IMG/VR virus record: IMGVR_UViG_3300008012_000240 | Location: 1 to 21,176 of that record | Strand: one strand, 5' to 3' | Origin: a virus | DNA length: 21,176 nt | In this document: positions 9,374 through 18,053 of the stretch, piece after piece | Layout of the letters: each line of letters opens with the position of its first letter | Numbering within the stretch: position 1 is the first letter of the stretch | Program-made: the position numbers and the translations under genes | Notes under the pieces: generated by a model | Told to the model about the DNA's origin: nothing | Seen by the model: only the letters and a program-made list of their open reading frames with translations | Databases searched by the model: none

Positions 9374-9402
9374 ACTAGAAAATCCTACGTTAATTTCCAT
9401 AT

Positions 9403-9431
9403 AGTATAGCATAAAATGTAAGTAAAGTCAA
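9403..9431 (-). promoter_or_regulatory. Leftward late-operon promoter
   Basis: On the minus strand TTGACT (9431-9426) and TATACT (9408-9403) are separated by 17 bp, with TGC before the -10 (extended -10). The predicted start is near 9396, giving a 5' leader of about 23 nt before the small terminase ATG at 9373. Confidence 0.8.
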
Positions 9432-9491
9432 GTGTTGCTAACAGATTCCTTTTTAGATGTTACAATATAACGTTTTATTTAAAATGAAAGA

Positions 9492-9508
9492 TGTACAATT
9501 TCTGTACA
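9492..9508. repeat. Paired TGTACA palindromes
   Basis: The hexamer palindrome TGTACA occurs at 9492-9497 and 9503-9508, 11 bp start to start, or about one helical turn. This is a possible protein-binding site upstream of the leftward promoter. No known regulator is assigned. Confidence 0.4.
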
Positions 9509-9612
9509 GATATTAAATAGTTAGATAGTTTACACAGATCAAAGGATTGTCAAGACTTTTTAGTCAATTTAGTTCTTTTTTGTGTCTGTGTAGGTACTGT
9601 ATAGACTGCGAT

Positions 9613-9647
9613 GGCTCGGCAGCCCCCCGGTGGGGTGCTCTGTAGCC
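9613..9647. other. GC-rich imperfect hairpin
   Basis: In AT-rich surroundings, AGC-CCCC (9621-9627) pairs with GGGG-T-GCT (9632-9639) around a CGGT loop with one bulged T. An outer GGCT (9613-9616) pairs with AGCC (9644-9647) across an internal loop. Neither strand has a U-run after it, so it is not a simple terminator. Confidence 0.5.
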
Positions 9648-9689
9648 ACACCAGGTTGACTCAGATCTTTGAAGGAAAGTCAAGACTCA

Positions 9690-9922
9690 TTATACTTTGG
9701 TCTATATAGACTAAGGTAGCATTGAAGTGTGAGTGTCTATGTAGTACCCTATAGGGTTAAAAAGTTTAAGGCATACTACTAAAGTCTATACTACTAAGGT
9801 CTATTATACTTTAGTCTATTATACTAATGTCTAATACCCAGGTGAATCGAGACGTGGTAGTCAAGACTATTCATATGTTTTAGGTGATGATGTTATACTA
9901 AAGTCTATGATACCTATGTCTA
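9690..9922 (+). repeat. 15-bp iteron-like repeat array
   Basis: Copies of a 15-mer with consensus TTATACTWWRGTCTA lie at 9690-9704, 9774-9788, 9789-9803, 9804-9818, 9819-9833, 9893-9907 and 9908-9922. Four of them are perfectly head-to-tail with no spacer, and the last two are as well. An inverted copy at 9707-9721 forms a dyad with the first copy across a 2-bp gap. Every copy contains GTCTA (TAGAC when inverted). The arrangement fits iterons or operators for a phage-encoded DNA-binding protein. Confidence 0.75.
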
Positions 9923-10071
9923 ATACCATTGGTGCGTTGCACAATATACTATGGCAATTGTCGATAGAGACAAGCATTCAAACAGTGATGGATAAACACG
10001 AACAAACCCAAGTAGAATGCGAGTCAGTGAAACTCATTAGGCATAGAGTCAAAAAAGTTTTACATTAGGTA

Positions 10072-10099
10072 TTGACAATTGAATACGAACATGCATAAT
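10072..10099 (+). promoter_or_regulatory. Rightward early promoter
   Basis: TTGACA (10072-10077) and CATAAT (10094-10099) are separated by 16 bp, an 11/12 match to sigma70. The predicted start is near 10106, giving a leader of about 310 nt before the first rightward gene at 10420. Confidence 0.65.
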
Positions 10100-10114
10100 A
10101 GAATACAACAAGGC

Positions 10115-10155
10115 GCACAGTTTGGGTGTTGGCTACTACGAAGTGTAGACTGTGC
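10115..10155 (+). other. Leader stem-loop
   Basis: GCACAGT (10115-10121) pairs with ACTGTGC (10149-10155). The stem extends inward by three more pairs, two of them G-U, giving about 10 bp just after the predicted transcription start. An exact CTTGGCAAC direct repeat follows at about 10155 and 10187. Confidence 0.45.
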
Positions 10156-10356
10156 TTGGCAACATAGACAATAAAAGACCCACTTCTTGGCAACGTGCAG
10201 AAGTCAGTGACTGCCACCATTGTAAGCCGCATTCGTGCGCCTGTGGGCGTGGACACATAATAGTATGCATCCGAATCTGTCTAGTTAAATTGTCCTAGCT
10301 AGCAAGCAATTGGTACTACGGACTAGAAACTTTATCTCTCACATGTTGCATTGACA

Positions 10357-10394
10357 GTTGACATCAGCAAAATCCAGGTTTTGTTGGTGTCAGC
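10357..10394 (+). other. 16-bp RNA stem-loop before the first early gene
   Basis: Positions 10357-10372 and 10379-10394 pair over 16 bp with no mismatch when the plus strand is RNA (13 Watson-Crick and 3 G-U pairs), around a 6-nt TCCAGG loop. On the minus strand the three wobbles would be A-C mismatches. The structure is therefore plus-strand RNA specific, and it ends 25 nt before the start codon at 10420. Confidence 0.65.
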
Positions 10395-10419
10395 ACTCAA
10401 TGTAACAAAGGAGACTAAA

Positions 10420-10614
10420 ATGGATATTCAAGACAGCATAGACTTTGATGCACGTTGGGAATCTTCAGACGAGTACACAGTGTTCGTTGGTGGTACTGAA
10501 GTGATCAATTATTACACTTCAGAACGCCATGCAGAAAAGATTGCGAGTGTCTGGAAACAGGCAGGGTACGATGATGTCAAGGTAGTGAATACTTGGACAA
10601 TAGAAAACAGTTGA
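10420..10614 (+). CDS. Small early protein of unknown function (64 aa)
   Basis: The ATG at 10420 is preceded by AAAGGAG 6-8 nt upstream. A longer in-frame TTG start at 10351 would run through the leader stem-loop and has no ribosome site. The product begins MDIQDSIDFDARWESSDEYT and is acidic, with alternating strand-helix character (YTVFVGGTEVINYY, SERHAEKIASVWKQAG, VKVVNTWTI). This suggests a small alpha/beta fold similar in style to ribbon-type phage proteins that take up a residue-rich segment. No known family is recognised. It is the first rightward gene, so a host-takeover or regulatory role is possible but unproven. Confidence 0.7.
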   Translation: MDIQDSIDFDARWESSDEYTVFVGGTEVINYYTSERHAEKIASVWKQAGYDDVKVVNTWTIENS

Positions 10615-10621
10615 CTTGATA

Positions 10622-10666
10622 GATGACATTGGTTACAGTGTCATCACTCAAGACAATTAAGTCTTG
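10622..10666 (+). other. Pair of intergenic RNA stem-loops
   Basis: Hairpin 1 pairs GATGACATTG (10622-10631) with CAGTGTCATC (10636-10645) around GTTA, ten pairs with one G-U. Hairpin 2 pairs CAAGAC (10649-10654) with GTCTTG (10661-10666) around AATTAA. They fill the 82-nt gap between two early genes. No U-run follows, so processing or stability sites are more likely than terminators. Confidence 0.6.
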
Positions 10667-10696
10667 GTCTAGCTAAACAGTGAGAGGTTAATAGCT

Positions 10697-10918
10697 ATGA
10701 AAATTGCAACAGCAAAGTCTACATCATGGGTTCGTTGGTCAGCACTACGCACTGCAAAGTTACATGGACGCAAGTTCTTCAACATTGCAGGTGTTCGTGG
10801 ATTCGTTGCACTGCGTAAGTACAAGAGTCGTGGCGTTGGTATTCAAACATCACCACTCACAAAGCAGGTGCATCTTGGCCGGTTGACAATTGGTGTCGGC
10901 AAGTATAACTTTGCATAG
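10697..10918 (+). CDS. Small basic protein (73 aa), unknown
   Basis: The ATG at 10697 has AGAGG about 9 nt upstream. The product begins MKIATAKSTSWVRWSALRTA and is strongly basic (about 15 Lys/Arg, almost no acidic residues), with segments HGRKFFNIAGVRGF and ALRKYKSRG. Such composition suggests nucleic-acid binding, by inference. It lies between two gaps that both carry paired stem-loops. No family recognised. A second frame overlaps here but is shorter and lacks a ribosome site. Confidence 0.65.
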   Translation: MKIATAKSTSWVRWSALRTAKLHGRKFFNIAGVRGFVALRKYKSRGVGIQTSPLTKQVHLGRLTIGVGKYNFA

Positions 10919-10927
10919 TGTACTGCC

Positions 10928-10970
10928 ATAGGGCATTCGTGAGAGTGTCCTATATCGGTAACACTACCGA
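10928..10970 (+). other. Second pair of intergenic RNA stem-loops
   Basis: Hairpin 1 pairs ATAGGGCATTC (10928-10938) with GAGTGTCCTAT (10943-10953): 11 pairs, two of them G-U, capped by a GTGA (GNRA-type) tetraloop. Hairpin 2 pairs TCGGTA (10955-10960) with TACCGA (10965-10970) around ACAC. They lie in the 73-nt gap before the gene at 10992. Confidence 0.6.
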
Positions 10971-10991
10971 CTACATAGAGAGGTAAAGCAG

Positions 10992-11588
10992 ATGAGTAAA
11001 GAAAACATCTTGACAATCTTCAACCTGGCTACTCCAGAAGAGATTGAACATGGCATTACATGGTATGCTACTGCACACTGTGAATGTCTCTCTATCTCTG
11101 AAGACCTAGATATTCCACTCAACGTAGTGGTTGGTGTAGTTGCGGCACTGTCCCCAAATAACAAGTGGGACAGAAACATTGTAAATGCTCGTGACCTATG
11201 CACTGCATACATTGATGGTGCTAGCATGGAGTCGGTGAAGGTATCAACATACGGTAAGATGAAAGAGAAAGCATGGTCTATCTTGGAGTCTATGCCTAGC
11301 TATGATGATACAGTAAAGATCCTGAATGGTCAGAAGATTGTTTGTTTCTTTCAGAACATCATGGGTGAGAATACATGCACTGTTGATGGTCATGCATACA
11401 ACATCTATCATGCGAGTCGTCAAAGCTTGACTGGTAGCATATCAATCGGTAAGATAGAGTATCACCTGATACAGGATGCCTATCGTTCGGCAGGTAATTC
11501 GGTGCAGGTGCATGGCCGTGAATTGATGGCCTATGAAATGCAAGCCATCACATGGGTGACATGGCGTAGAATACATAACATCAAGTGA
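10992..11588 (+). CDS. DUF7178-like phage protein (possible HhH-GPD relative)
   Basis: This 198-residue protein begins MSKENILTIFNLATPEEIEH. The segments EHGITWYATAHCECLSIS, VGVVAALSPNNKWDRNIVNA, KVSTYGKMKEKAWSIL, and GQKIVCFFQNI followed by CTVDGHAYNIY match, as I recall it, the phage family DUF7178. The VDGHA block resembles the conserved VDxHV/VDRHA of HhH-GPD DNA glycosylases, but no Lys/Asp catalytic pair can be assigned with confidence. Its start has AGAGG upstream. It is followed by the methyltransferase-like gene after 7 nt. A role in base excision or DNA modification is inference only. Confidence 0.55.
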   Translation: MSKENILTIFNLATPEEIEHGITWYATAHCECLSISEDLDIPLNVVVGVVAALSPNNKWDRNIVNARDLCTAYIDGASMESVKVSTYGKMKEKAWSILESMPSYDDTVKILNGQKIVCFFQNIMGENTCTVDGHAYNIYHASRQSLTGSISIGKIEYHLIQDAYRSAGNSVQVHGRELMAYEMQAITWVTWRRIHNIK

Positions 11589-11595
11589 GGTAGTT

Positions 11596-12186
11596 ATGCG
11601 AGTGTTAGTGGCGTGTGAGTATAGTGGTAAAGTTCGTAGAGCATTTAGGAAACGTGGACATGATGCGTGGAGTTGTGATCTACTACCTGCTGATGATGGA
11701 AGTCAGTATCACATTCAAGGTGATGTGATGTACATCATCAACGAAGGGTGGGATCTACTGATCGGTCATCCTCCATGTACATACCTGTGTAACAGTGGTG
11801 TCTCATGGTTGCACAAACAGGAAGGTAGATGGGACAAGATGCGCGATGGTGCAGAGTTCTTCAGTCTCCTATGGCAATCGGACGTACCCAGGATTGCAAT
11901 TGAAAATCCAATCATGCATAAGTATGCCAAAGAAATTATTGGTGCTGAACAAACACAAACTGTTCAGCCGTGGATGTTTGGTCATGCTGAGAGTAAGGCT
12001 ACATGCTTGTGGTTGAAGGGACTCGATCCTTTGATTGAGACTAACAACGTCAAAGACGAGTGGAAGTCTCTGCCCAAGAAAGAAGCACAACGACTGCACA
12101 TGCTACCACCCAGTAAAGACAGGTGGAAACTACGCAGTGAGACATACCAAGGTATTGCTGATGCAATGGCAGAACAGTGGGGATAG
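11596..12186 (+). CDS. C5-methyltransferase-like protein
   Basis: This 196-residue protein begins MRVLVACEYSGKVRRAFRKR. Residues 3-11 correspond to the SAM-binding motif I, SCDLLP (26-31) to motif II and HIQGDV (39-44) to motif III. GHPPCT (57-62) is motif IV with the nucleophile-type Cys61, and IENP (102-105) stands for motif VI ENV. This is the short phage branch of the cytosine-5 methyltransferase superfamily. At 196 residues it lacks room for a normal target-recognition domain, so sequence specificity is unclear. It may protect phage DNA from restriction or modify a cytosine base. It lies next to the DUF7178-like gene and may work with it. Confidence 0.72.
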   Translation: MRVLVACEYSGKVRRAFRKRGHDAWSCDLLPADDGSQYHIQGDVMYIINEGWDLLIGHPPCTYLCNSGVSWLHKQEGRWDKMRDGAEFFSLLWQSDVPRIAIENPIMHKYAKEIIGAEQTQTVQPWMFGHAESKATCLWLKGLDPLIETNNVKDEWKSLPKKEAQRLHMLPPSKDRWKLRSETYQGIADAMAEQWG

Positions 12187-12189
12187 ACA

Positions 12190-12306
12190 ATGACATACCA
12201 AGAGATACGGGATCTGTACGACAGTAATCCAAACATGACACTCTACCAACTGAGTAGGTGGACAGGCAAGACAATTGCAGAGTTGAAACAAATACTCATG
12301 TCATAG
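12190..12306 (+). CDS. 38-aa HTH-like small protein
   Basis: The ATG at 12190 is preceded by GGGGA 6-7 nt upstream and lies 3 nt after the methyltransferase stop. The product begins MTYQEIRDLYDSNPNMTLYQ and continues LSRWTGKTIAELKQILMS. The pattern of two helices joined by a turn (TLYQLSRWTGKTIAELKQIL) reads like a minimal helix-turn-helix, as in small phage proteins. DNA binding is possible by inference, and no target is suggested. Confidence 0.7.
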   Translation: MTYQEIRDLYDSNPNMTLYQLSRWTGKTIAELKQILMS

Positions 12307-12313
12307 GGGATAG

Positions 12314-12535
12314 ATGATGGTAGAGTACAATCCACTCTACATCTTCTCAAAGATACCGAACACAGATGAAGGTAGAGAATTTGTAGATAGCATGCGTAAG
12401 CACTTGAATCGGAACAGATACAAGATGCGTGTCAGAGGAACTGGATTGGTTGATGGTGCTGATTGGAGACGACACCAGTATGGTGCTCCACTGAGTAAGT
12501 CAACACATCTTAGAGTGTACATTGAGGAGAAGTGA
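12314..12535 (+). CDS. Small protein of unknown function (73 aa)
   Basis: The start is ATG at 12314 or the next codon at 12317, with AGGGGA upstream at good spacing for either. The product includes IFSKIPNTDEGREFVDSMRK and RNRYKMRVRGTGLVDGADWR; the latter basic, Gly-containing stretch and YGAPLSKSTHLRVYI suggest a small beta-rich fold. No family recognised. It lies in a run of short genes and overlaps the next ATG by 1 nt. Confidence 0.65.
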   Translation: MMVEYNPLYIFSKIPNTDEGREFVDSMRKHLNRNRYKMRVRGTGLVDGADWRRHQYGAPLSKSTHLRVYIEEK

Positions 12536-12714
12536 TGAAGTACAAAGTGACGACAACAGCAACAGCAGTGTGGCACATCTATGTTGATGCTGATAGTGAG
12601 GAACAAGCCAAGAACAAAGTGTTTGAGGGTGAGTATGATGAGAAGTACGACAAGGTAGTGACGTACATCAATGAGGAAGTACATGAGGTACAGTGTGTAC
12701 CAACTGAGGAGTGA
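12535..12714 (+). CDS. Small phage protein, DpnD/PcfM-like pattern (59 aa)
   Basis: I chose the ATG at 12535 (TGATG overlap with the upstream stop) with GAGGAG about 6 nt upstream. The in-frame GTG one codon earlier is less likely. The product begins MKYKVTTTATAVWHIYVDAD and has the arrangement beta strand (KYKVTTTATAVWHIYVDA), helix (DSEEQAKNKVFEG), beta strands. This pattern is shared by short phage proteins and by the DpnD/PcfM-type fold. I recognise only the pattern, not a proven family or function. Confidence 0.65.
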   Translation: MKYKVTTTATAVWHIYVDADSEEQAKNKVFEGEYDEKYDKVVTYINEEVHEVQCVPTEE

Positions 12715-12716
12715 GC

Positions 12717-12911
12717 ATGACAGTAGATAGTCAAACAGGATGTGATGATCAGTACGATGAAGCTATCAAGTTTTGTATCAACGAAATCATTGAAGAGATT
12801 CATCGGATCAAAGAGCTAGACCACTACGCAGTAGGTGATGTCTACGAACTAATATTCAAACAGAACGTAGAATCCAGGTATCAAGAATACTTGGACAGTC
12901 TGAAGGTATAA
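12717..12911 (+). CDS. Small acidic helical protein (64 aa)
   Basis: The ATG at 12717 has GAGGAG 5 nt upstream and is 2 nt past the previous stop; an in-frame GTG at 12711 is inside that ribosome site. The product begins MTVDSQTGCDDQYDEAIKFC. It is acidic and nearly all helical (YDEAIKFCINEIIEEIHRIK, then VYELIFKQNVESRYQEYLD). No family recognised. It belongs to the run of short genes before the primase-helicase. Confidence 0.62.
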   Translation: MTVDSQTGCDDQYDEAIKFCINEIIEEIHRIKELDHYAVGDVYELIFKQNVESRYQEYLDSLKV

Positions 12912-12912
12912 C

Positions 12913-12999
12913 ATGGACGCAGTGACATTCGTAAAATTCTATGCTGTCGCCAGTGTGATGTTGTTTATTTACTACTACGTCAAGGAGCATAACAAATGA
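12913..12999 (+). CDS. 28-aa single-pass membrane microprotein
   Basis: The ATG at 12913 lies 1 nt after the preceding stop, with GAAGG 6 nt upstream. The product begins MDAVTFVKFYAVASVMLFIY and ends YYVKEHNK. Residues 4-22 are hydrophobic and aromatic, long enough for one membrane span, with a basic C-terminus on what would be the cytoplasmic side. Its TGA overlaps the ATG of the next gene. Function unknown. A role in the host membrane, such as superinfection exclusion or lysis timing, is possible but not shown. Confidence 0.6.
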   Translation: MDAVTFVKFYAVASVMLFIYYYVKEHNK

Positions 13000-13181
13000 G
13001 ATGTAAAGCATGTAACACAGAGTTGAATGCGTTTGAATCAACACGCAAAGGCTTTGAGTCTGGAGAGTATATTGACTTGTGTAATTCCTGCTTTAGTACA
13101 GTGGCAGAAGACTTCAATGTCACTGAACGTGAAGACCTGAAGCACATCAATGATGAAATAGTTATTGACAAATTAGACTGA
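12996..13181 (+). CDS. Small four-cysteine zinc-finger protein (61 aa)
   Basis: The ATG at 12996 overlaps the previous stop (ATGA), with AAGGAG 9 nt upstream. Cys3-x2-Cys6 (RCKAC) and LCNSC near residues 29-32 form a four-cysteine zinc finger of a type common in phages, with the bridge TRKGFESGEYIDL. The C-terminal half is acidic and helical. It likely binds zinc and perhaps nucleic acid or protein. Its coding end carries the -35 box of the next promoter. Confidence 0.7.
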   Translation: MRCKACNTELNAFESTRKGFESGEYIDLCNSCFSTVAEDFNVTEREDLKHINDEIVIDKLD

Positions 13182-13192
13182 TGTGGTATAAT
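13165..13192 (+). promoter_or_regulatory. Consensus sigma70 promoter
   Basis: TTGACA (13165-13170) and TATAAT (13187-13192) are both perfect, with a 16-bp spacer. The -35 box lies in the 3' end of the zinc-finger gene. The predicted start is near 13199, with a leader of about 100 nt before the GTG at 13301. Confidence 0.85.
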
Positions 13193-13206
13193 AACTATAT
13201 AGATAC

Positions 13207-13288
13207 ATAGCTAGATAGCTATAGAGCTTAATCAAAGTGTTTAATATATACTTTACTTTGATTACTAAATAGCTACATAGCTTTAGAG
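13207..13288 (+). promoter_or_regulatory. Repeated dyad operator-like region in the leader
   Basis: A 20-nt direct repeat (13207-13226 and 13269-13288, 18/20 identical) begins in each case with a dyad: ATAGCTA-GA-TAGCTAT, perfect, in copy 1, and ATAGCTA-CA-TAGCTTT in copy 2. Between them AATCAAAGT (13230-13238) and ACTTTGATT (13255-13263) form a 9-bp inverted repeat. The placement just downstream of the promoter suits repressor binding or a structured leader. Confidence 0.6.
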
Positions 13289-13300
13289 AAGGGGATAACA

Positions 13301-13402
13301 GTGAAAATTATTGGATGGATCACCATGTACGTTGATGGCTCTTCTGTTGGAGAGTGTAGCCCAGTGTACGATATGAAGGAGTGGCTCGATGGACTTGTTT
13401 GA
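13301..13402 (+). CDS. 33-aa small protein with GTG start
   Basis: GTG at 13301 is preceded by AAGGGG about 7 nt upstream, a near-ideal site. The product begins MKIIGWITMYVDGSSVGECS and ends MKEWLDGLV. No family recognised; a short beta-hairpin plus helix is plausible. It is the first gene after the promoter at 13165-13192 and overlaps the next gene by 14 nt. Confidence 0.58.
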   Translation: MKIIGWITMYVDGSSVGECSPVYDMKEWLDGLV

Positions 13403-13574
13403 GGTGGCTAGAGAACTACGTAAGCACGAATCTCTGACGTTCTGTTCGGACTACATCAGGGAGCATGGCTTGGAACAATTGTTGGATGCGTTGATGGACT
13501 ACAGTCCTCATCCTGCTATCCCACTACTCAAAGTACATGCGAAAGAATTAGACACATACGAATGGAGACAGTGA
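13389..13574 (+). CDS. Small helical protein (61 aa), unknown
   Basis: The ATG at 13389 has AAGGAG 8 nt upstream, inside the previous gene. The product begins MDLFEVARELRKHESLTFCS and is mostly helical (REHGLEQLLDALMDYS). It is not recognised as a known family. It overlaps the previous gene by 14 nt and precedes the next by 1 nt, so it is translated as part of the cluster. Confidence 0.65.
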   Translation: MDLFEVARELRKHESLTFCSDYIREHGLEQLLDALMDYSPHPAIPLLKVHAKELDTYEWRQ

Positions 13575-13575
13575 G

Positions 13576-13773
13576 ATGACAGATAAAAACATTTACACAT
13601 TGGAAGACTTCACCGAATACCTAGCTGAGTTGCCTCTTGGTACAGAGCATGTAAAGAAACTCACAGACTATGCTGAGTTGAAACAAAAACAATTAGAGTT
13701 TACACAATCTAGGCTTCATGTTGCAAGTCAAATCATTGGTGCTGATGTCATTACGGATTACATGAACGAATGA
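13576..13773 (+). CDS. Small helical protein (65 aa), unknown
   Basis: The ATG at 13576 is preceded by GGAGA about 7-8 nt upstream. The product begins MTDKNIYTLEDFTEYLAELP and is acidic/helical with a possible coiled-coil segment (VKKLTDYAELKQKQLEFTQS). It overlaps the next gene by an ATGA. No family recognised. Confidence 0.65.
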   Translation: MTDKNIYTLEDFTEYLAELPLGTEHVKKLTDYAELKQKQLEFTQSRLHVASQIIGADVITDYMNE

Positions 13774-18005: not shown

Positions 18006-18021
18006 ACTTGTGTGTTATAAT
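17992..18021 (+). promoter_or_regulatory. Promoter of the SSB operon with embedded dyad
   Basis: TTGACA (17992-17997) and TATAAT (18016-18021) are both consensus, with an 18-bp spacer. The spacer region contains a 7-bp inverted repeat (ACACACA, 17995-18001, and TGTGTGT, 18009-18015). The predicted start is near 18028, 26 nt before the SSB ATG. The dyad may be an operator or the tail of the polymerase mRNA. Confidence 0.8.
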
Positions 18022-18053
18022 ATATAGTATACCACCAACAAAAGGAGAATGGT

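Follow-up and report, generated by a model that had tools for sequence, protein, structure and literature searches.

Covarying two-helix RNA hairpins precede the first three early genes in a group of phages and resemble T7-type processing signals

The first three early genes of the virus record analyzed here, an uncultured marine-type phage, are each preceded by a long RNA hairpin that has been evolutionarily kept in related phages. With moderate confidence, we read these hairpins as processing signals of the RNase III type by which the early mRNAs would be split and capped, as in T7. The window, meaning the whole stretch of DNA that was analyzed, comprises a virus record of 21,176 bases. Its minus strand encodes terminase, portal, and tail proteins, and after these late genes comes a plus-strand arm of small early genes, a primase-helicase, a DNA polymerase, and a ribonucleotide reductase (“early” being assigned from gene position). 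By DNA polymerase, its closest annotated phages are Pelagibacter phages HTVC103P and HTVC104P, and because this best identity is 45%, the phage group of the window has no close relative in the annotated collection searched. Gaps 1, 2, and 3 are the spacers upstream of genes 10420 (10420..10614, plus strand; 64 aa, no family), 10697 (10697..10918, plus strand; small and basic, 73 aa, in no Pfam or PHROG family), and 10992 (10992..11588, plus strand; DUF7178/phrog_3842). The 10697 protein is conserved across the clade of the window and is 36-46% identical in a sister clade.

All three hairpins fall inside the would-be transcript of a plus-strand promoter-like sequence, TTGACA-16-CATAAT (10072..10099), that matches 11 of 12 consensus positions. 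It occupies the same place, 250-300 nt upstream of the first hairpin, in relatives L002, L004, L005, and L186, and is altered in L188. The leader between it and the first hairpin (10106-10343) folds no better than shuffled sequence (z +0.8). Farther downstream, at 13165-13305, a perfect TTGACA-16-TATAAT promoter that is also kept in L002, L004, and L005 stands before a small gene, and the leader between them contains an imperfect hairpin (z -2.6) whose sequence is retained in L002, and not clearly in L004. The divergent intergenic region at 9690-9930 contains repeated YATACTAARGTCTA units. Between late genes, at 2082-2134 on the minus strand, a GGGGGTC...GACCCCC hairpin precedes a short T-rich stretch and is possibly a terminator.

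The gap 1 element (10344..10407, plus strand) is a single 64-nt hairpin of -35.8 kcal/mol (z -7.8; 0 of 200 shuffles as stable). Among plus-strand 70-nt folds of the window it is the most stable, despite a G+C content of just 40%. The initial annotation had placed a 16-bp stem here; the stem is present, with its size understated, as an outer helix of 11 bp (10344-10354/10397-10407) is joined through a 2x2 internal loop, CA/AC (10355-10356/10395-10396), to an inner helix of 17 bp (10357-10373/10378-10394) closed by a 4-nt loop (10374-10377). The end of the hairpin adjoins AAGGAGA, which is followed by the ATG at 10420. A coding reading of the gap through an upstream TTG (10351) was rejected, as the proteins of relatives align from MDIQDS at the ATG.

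Gaps 2 and 3 follow the same plan of outer helix, 2x2 internal loop, inner helix, and tetraloop, so that the shorter stems first listed there are parts of larger two-helix hairpins. Both elements begin at or beside the stop codon of the preceding gene and finish ahead of the ribosome-binding site of the following one. The gap 2 element (10615..10652, plus strand), which begins directly 3' of a TGA, has a 5-bp outer helix (CTTGA/TCAAG, 10615-10619/10648-10652), an internal loop TA/AC (10620-10621/10646-10647), and a 10-bp inner helix (10622-10631/10636-10645) with a GTTA loop. The stems of 10 and 6 bp originally reported in this gap were recovered as stems of 10 bp and 6-7 bp, in a fold with a z-score of -3.4 (2 of 200 shuffles as stable). 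Gap 3 (10916..10966, plus strand) overlaps a TAG stop codon and has an outer helix at 10916-10925/10956-10966 with a bulged A at 10960, an internal loop CC/AT (10926-10927/10954-10955), and an inner helix of 11 bp (10928-10938/10943-10953) with a GTGA loop. Folded as the 11-bp stem with its GTGA cap plus the 6-bp stem, both as proposed earlier, this gap gives z -4.3 (0 of 200 shuffles), and as one extended hairpin z -6.2. Two control stretches, 18006-18053 and 12907-12995, were indistinguishable from shuffled sequence (z +0.7 and +0.2).

The proposal that such hairpins occupy every spacer of the early operon holds only for the spacers before the first three genes; most later spacers are a few bases long or are replaced by gene overlaps. 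The accompanying claim of G-U pairs that work only in plus-strand RNA agrees with the reverse-strand z-scores of gaps 1 and 3 (-1.5 and -1.2), while in gap 2 the reverse strand reaches the same z-score (-3.4), with the plus strand 4.6 kcal/mol better. As had also been stated, the stems carry no terminator U-run, and a search of 9400-13600 found no terminator-like sites. At the hairpin positions, Rfam gave no covariance-model match with an E-value of 1 or below; its one hit, to mir-122 at another position, stayed under the threshold (27.9 bits, cut-off 70) and was judged to be chance. A tRNA reading was dismissed, with none found.

Relatives were gathered by searches with four proteins of the window and by a pattern scan, and the resulting contigs share the early gene order. 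Nine are distinct (L002, L004, L005, L122, L130, L133, L186, L188, and L201, with L004 and L005 close to each other), the others being near-identical copies. Hairpins of the same plan occupy the same places in about nine relatives, with differing helix sequences and inner-helix lengths, and they fall into two families. Family A, in gaps 1 and 2, has the form TTGAYAG...CACTCAA, and family B, in gap 3, has the form AGTGTACTGCC...ATCGG. The outer helices differ between the families, and neither covariance model finds the other family. A helix core of CAYU/AGUG, one wobble pair included, is nevertheless common to both families and lies 5 bp from the internal loop in A (inner helices of gaps 1 and 2) and 6 bp from it in B (10928-10953).

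Covariation was assessed on alignments of trimmed arms, with apical parts omitted and the register set by hand. In family A, 97.7% of the cells are paired, 10 of 20 pairs are changed on both sides, and 0 of 500 shuffles did as well on the covariation score; in family B, the corresponding values are 99.0%, 8 of 20, and 0 of 500. These counts are not probabilities, the rows being related and the structure having been read from the same rows. In slid registers, where the partner was moved by 1-3 columns, family A pairing was at most 46%. Given the slid controls and how many pairs changed on both sides, conservation of an RNA structure is hardly in doubt. Among 436 pair cells, 366 are Watson-Crick, 68 are G-U, none is A-C, and 2 are other; with 68 G-U pairs against no A-C pairs, it is plus-strand RNA, and not a DNA dyad, that is conserved. 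A preference for G-T over A-C mismatches is expected from pairing in plus-strand RNA and not from a dyad in DNA.

The family A covariance model finds the element in L201, which lies outside its training set, at 58.2 bits (E = 9e-13); as training members, the gap 1 and gap 3 elements score 67.4 and 71.1 bits with the models of their families. On the sense strand, the family A model scores 58-68 bits, against 21-38 bits on the opposite strand, as expected for a model built on the sense strand. In pattern scans of the viral collection, family A and folded family B were confined to the clade of the window; matches to the family B pattern in L199, L200, L202, and L204 lack the B fold and were judged to be chance, with L204 scoring 25.6 bits with the covariance model, though it was picked by the same sequence pattern. 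Neither family was found in Pelagibacter phage HTVC103P (25.7 kb) or Roseobacter phage CRP-207 (4.6 kb). When 49 distinct early regions from related phages were scanned, the sense strand yielded six family hairpins along with two that are AT-rich or repetitive, the opposite strand yielded two hairpins, and shuffled sequences yielded 0.2.

Gene 10697 lies between an A and a B hairpin in the clade members with both ends in the contig. L004, L005, L122, L133, and L186 lack gene 10420 at this location and have one A hairpin in place of two; this single hairpin has a long outer helix like that of gap 1 together with an alternative helix like that of gap 2, and looks as if the two A hairpins had recombined. 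The gene after B is the DUF7178 gene in the window, L002, L004, and L005, and apparently in L201, judging from its first residues, and is a different gene (MIKLSKPSKMPC...) in L122, L130, L133, and L188. In L186, the order is B, a small gene, a second B, and then the MIKLSKPSKMPC... gene; the extra small gene flanked by two B hairpins (L186 765-1136) looks like the outcome of inserting or duplicating a unit of hairpin and gene. The hairpins thus mark the borders of exchangeable early genes. Members of the sister clade carry a promoter-like box, AGACTAAAGTATAATA, repeated before early genes (L006 3543-3600 and 3872-3930; L007 4005; L008 4035; L009 5369; L010 4391), mostly followed by a small hairpin, TAGGCA...TGCCTA or, in others, TAAGCA...TGCTTA, just upstream of the ribosome-binding site. 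Some minus-strand repeats in the divergent region of the window resemble this box (AGACATTAGTATAATA at 9832) and are directed at the late genes.

A further conserved feature is a second hairpin that the outer helix excludes. Before gene 10697, in 10 of 10 elements, the outer-helix 3' arm has a second possible pairing partner downstream, through TCAAGAC/GTCTTGG in the window and through TCAAGGT/GCCTTGG, TCAATGC/GCATTGG, and others in relatives. In the window, this alternative hairpin is TCAAGAC-AATTAA-GTCTTGG (10648..10667, plus strand); it has 7-8 bp in each of the nine aligned elements as well as in L201, which was found independently. It takes the 3' arm of the gap 2 outer helix as its own 5' arm, so that the two structures exclude each other. 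The alternative helix is paired in 100% of cells, with 2 pairs changed on both sides and its score reached in 2 of 500 shuffles, so that the statistical support is modest. Before gene 10420, this helix is missing in 4 of 4 elements. In family B, the alternative hairpin TCGGTA-ACAC-TACCGA (10955..10970, plus strand) excludes the CGG part of the outer helix; it has 5-6 bp in 7 of 10 elements and 4 bp with a mismatch in 2, and is absent in 1. RNAs beginning at the 3' side of the internal loop, as predicted 5' products, fold at -6.5 to -12.9 kcal/mol with a hairpin at or near the 5' end, and in gap 1 at just -0.7 kcal/mol, where these energies include nearby downstream pairing.

Together, the intercistronic placement, strand specificity, long helix with an internal loop, lack of a U-run, and setting in an early operon make the T7 RNase III signal the nearest known kind. 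T7 R1.1 is a 60-nt RNase III signal between genes 1.0 and 1.1 with an asymmetric internal loop of 4/5 nt (PMC6121014). The elements described here likewise stand between early genes, with two helices around an internal loop and no terminator tail, but their loop is a symmetric 2x2. In further contrast with T7 signals, they form two sequence families with covariation, gaps 2 and 3 carry a mutually exclusive downstream hairpin, and their cleavage is inferred only. Structure, conservation, strand, and placement are supported by the analyses above; promoter use, the cut, its site, the enzyme, and the effect on stability are inferred. Transcription of the early operon would start at the promoter near 10072, and each spacer RNA would fold into the long two-part helix that folding and covariation support. 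A double-strand-specific nuclease, most likely host RNase III, would cut at or near the internal loop, leaving the inner hairpin at the 3' end of the upstream message. As the 3' arm of the outer helix can pair again downstream, such a cut would leave a 5'-terminal hairpin on the downstream mRNA: in gaps 2 and 3, the freed arm and its conserved complement would form a hairpin at the new 5' end. Gene 10697 would then be carried on a short mRNA with hairpins at both ends, with the first early genes expressed from separate messages of differing stability, much as in the T7 early region. More tentatively, and in view of the hairpins at or near the new 5' ends of the predicted products, processing and refolding may be coupled, such that a cut in the internal loop frees the 3' arm to form a pre-coded 5' hairpin, one element combines the cut with a protective 5' structure, and the mRNA of a small early gene is hairpinned at both ends. 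Such a product would resemble the ompA-type 5'-stabilizing leader hairpins of bacterial mRNAs, starting with a hairpin before the ribosome-binding site, except that the hairpin here is usable only after the outer helix opens or is cut.

Several observations sit uneasily with processing. The 5 + 10 bp helix of gap 2 is short for RNase III, and one alphaproteobacterial RNase III needs longer substrates (PMC6121014). The alternative hairpin shows few double changes and is missing at gap 1. The internal loop is symmetric and conserved in sequence beyond what RNase III should need, and another protein could therefore read the hairpins. If instead a phage or host protein bound these RNAs to regulate how the small early genes are translated, with the alternative hairpin as a regulatory switch, the conserved loop and the helix core common to A and B would be accounted for, but a candidate protein is lacking and the alternative helix leaves the ribosome-binding site uncovered; we regard this as improbable. 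Somewhat less improbable, though still unlikely, is that the hairpins remain uncut, as stable intercistronic or 5'-leader structures that slow decay and hold the ribosome-binding site open. That their very stable folds end just before free Shine-Dalgarno sequences agrees with such a role, and the promoter-like box and small hairpin of the sister clade fit a role at 5' ends; the conserved internal loop and the conserved mutually exclusive hairpin would go unexplained.

That the hairpins act in antitermination, altering RNA polymerase for the early operon like the put RNAs of HK022 (~70 nt, with two stem-loops, near early promoters; PMC9378689), is very unlikely. Common to both are a structured RNA of similar size (~40-75 nt here), a phage early operon, and a position near a promoter, but the present elements precede each of three genes rather than occurring once per promoter, and each is a single extended hairpin with a 2x2 loop. 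As for the paired stem-loops of put, gap 1, the first element, lacks a second stem, and gaps 2 and 3 can form one only by opening part of the outer helix. The 9400-13600 region yielded no terminators to read through. DNA-level elements, that is, operators or internal promoters with dyads that merely resemble RNA stems, are the least credible reading: a TTGACA-17-TACATT was seen by eye in some family B members, but its promoter-like spacing is not retained in gaps 1 and 3 of the window, and the G-U/A-C asymmetry largely refutes a dyad or operator. The observation of structured spacers made in the initial annotation is confirmed and strengthened; of its functional interpretation, which is plausible and partly supported, the RNA-level function is strongly supported by covariation, strand-specific G-U pairs, and conserved placement, for the first three spacers rather than for all.

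No description of such elements was found in the part of the literature covered, and we regard them as new families within a known type of element, unusual in one respect, the second hairpin that excludes the outer helix. Covarying processing-type hairpins in phages without a close isolate would extend the logic of T7 early mRNA to distant relatives of T7. The mutually exclusive 5' hairpin provides a concrete, testable idea for how a cut message protects its new end, and the two covariance models can serve as markers for this phage group.
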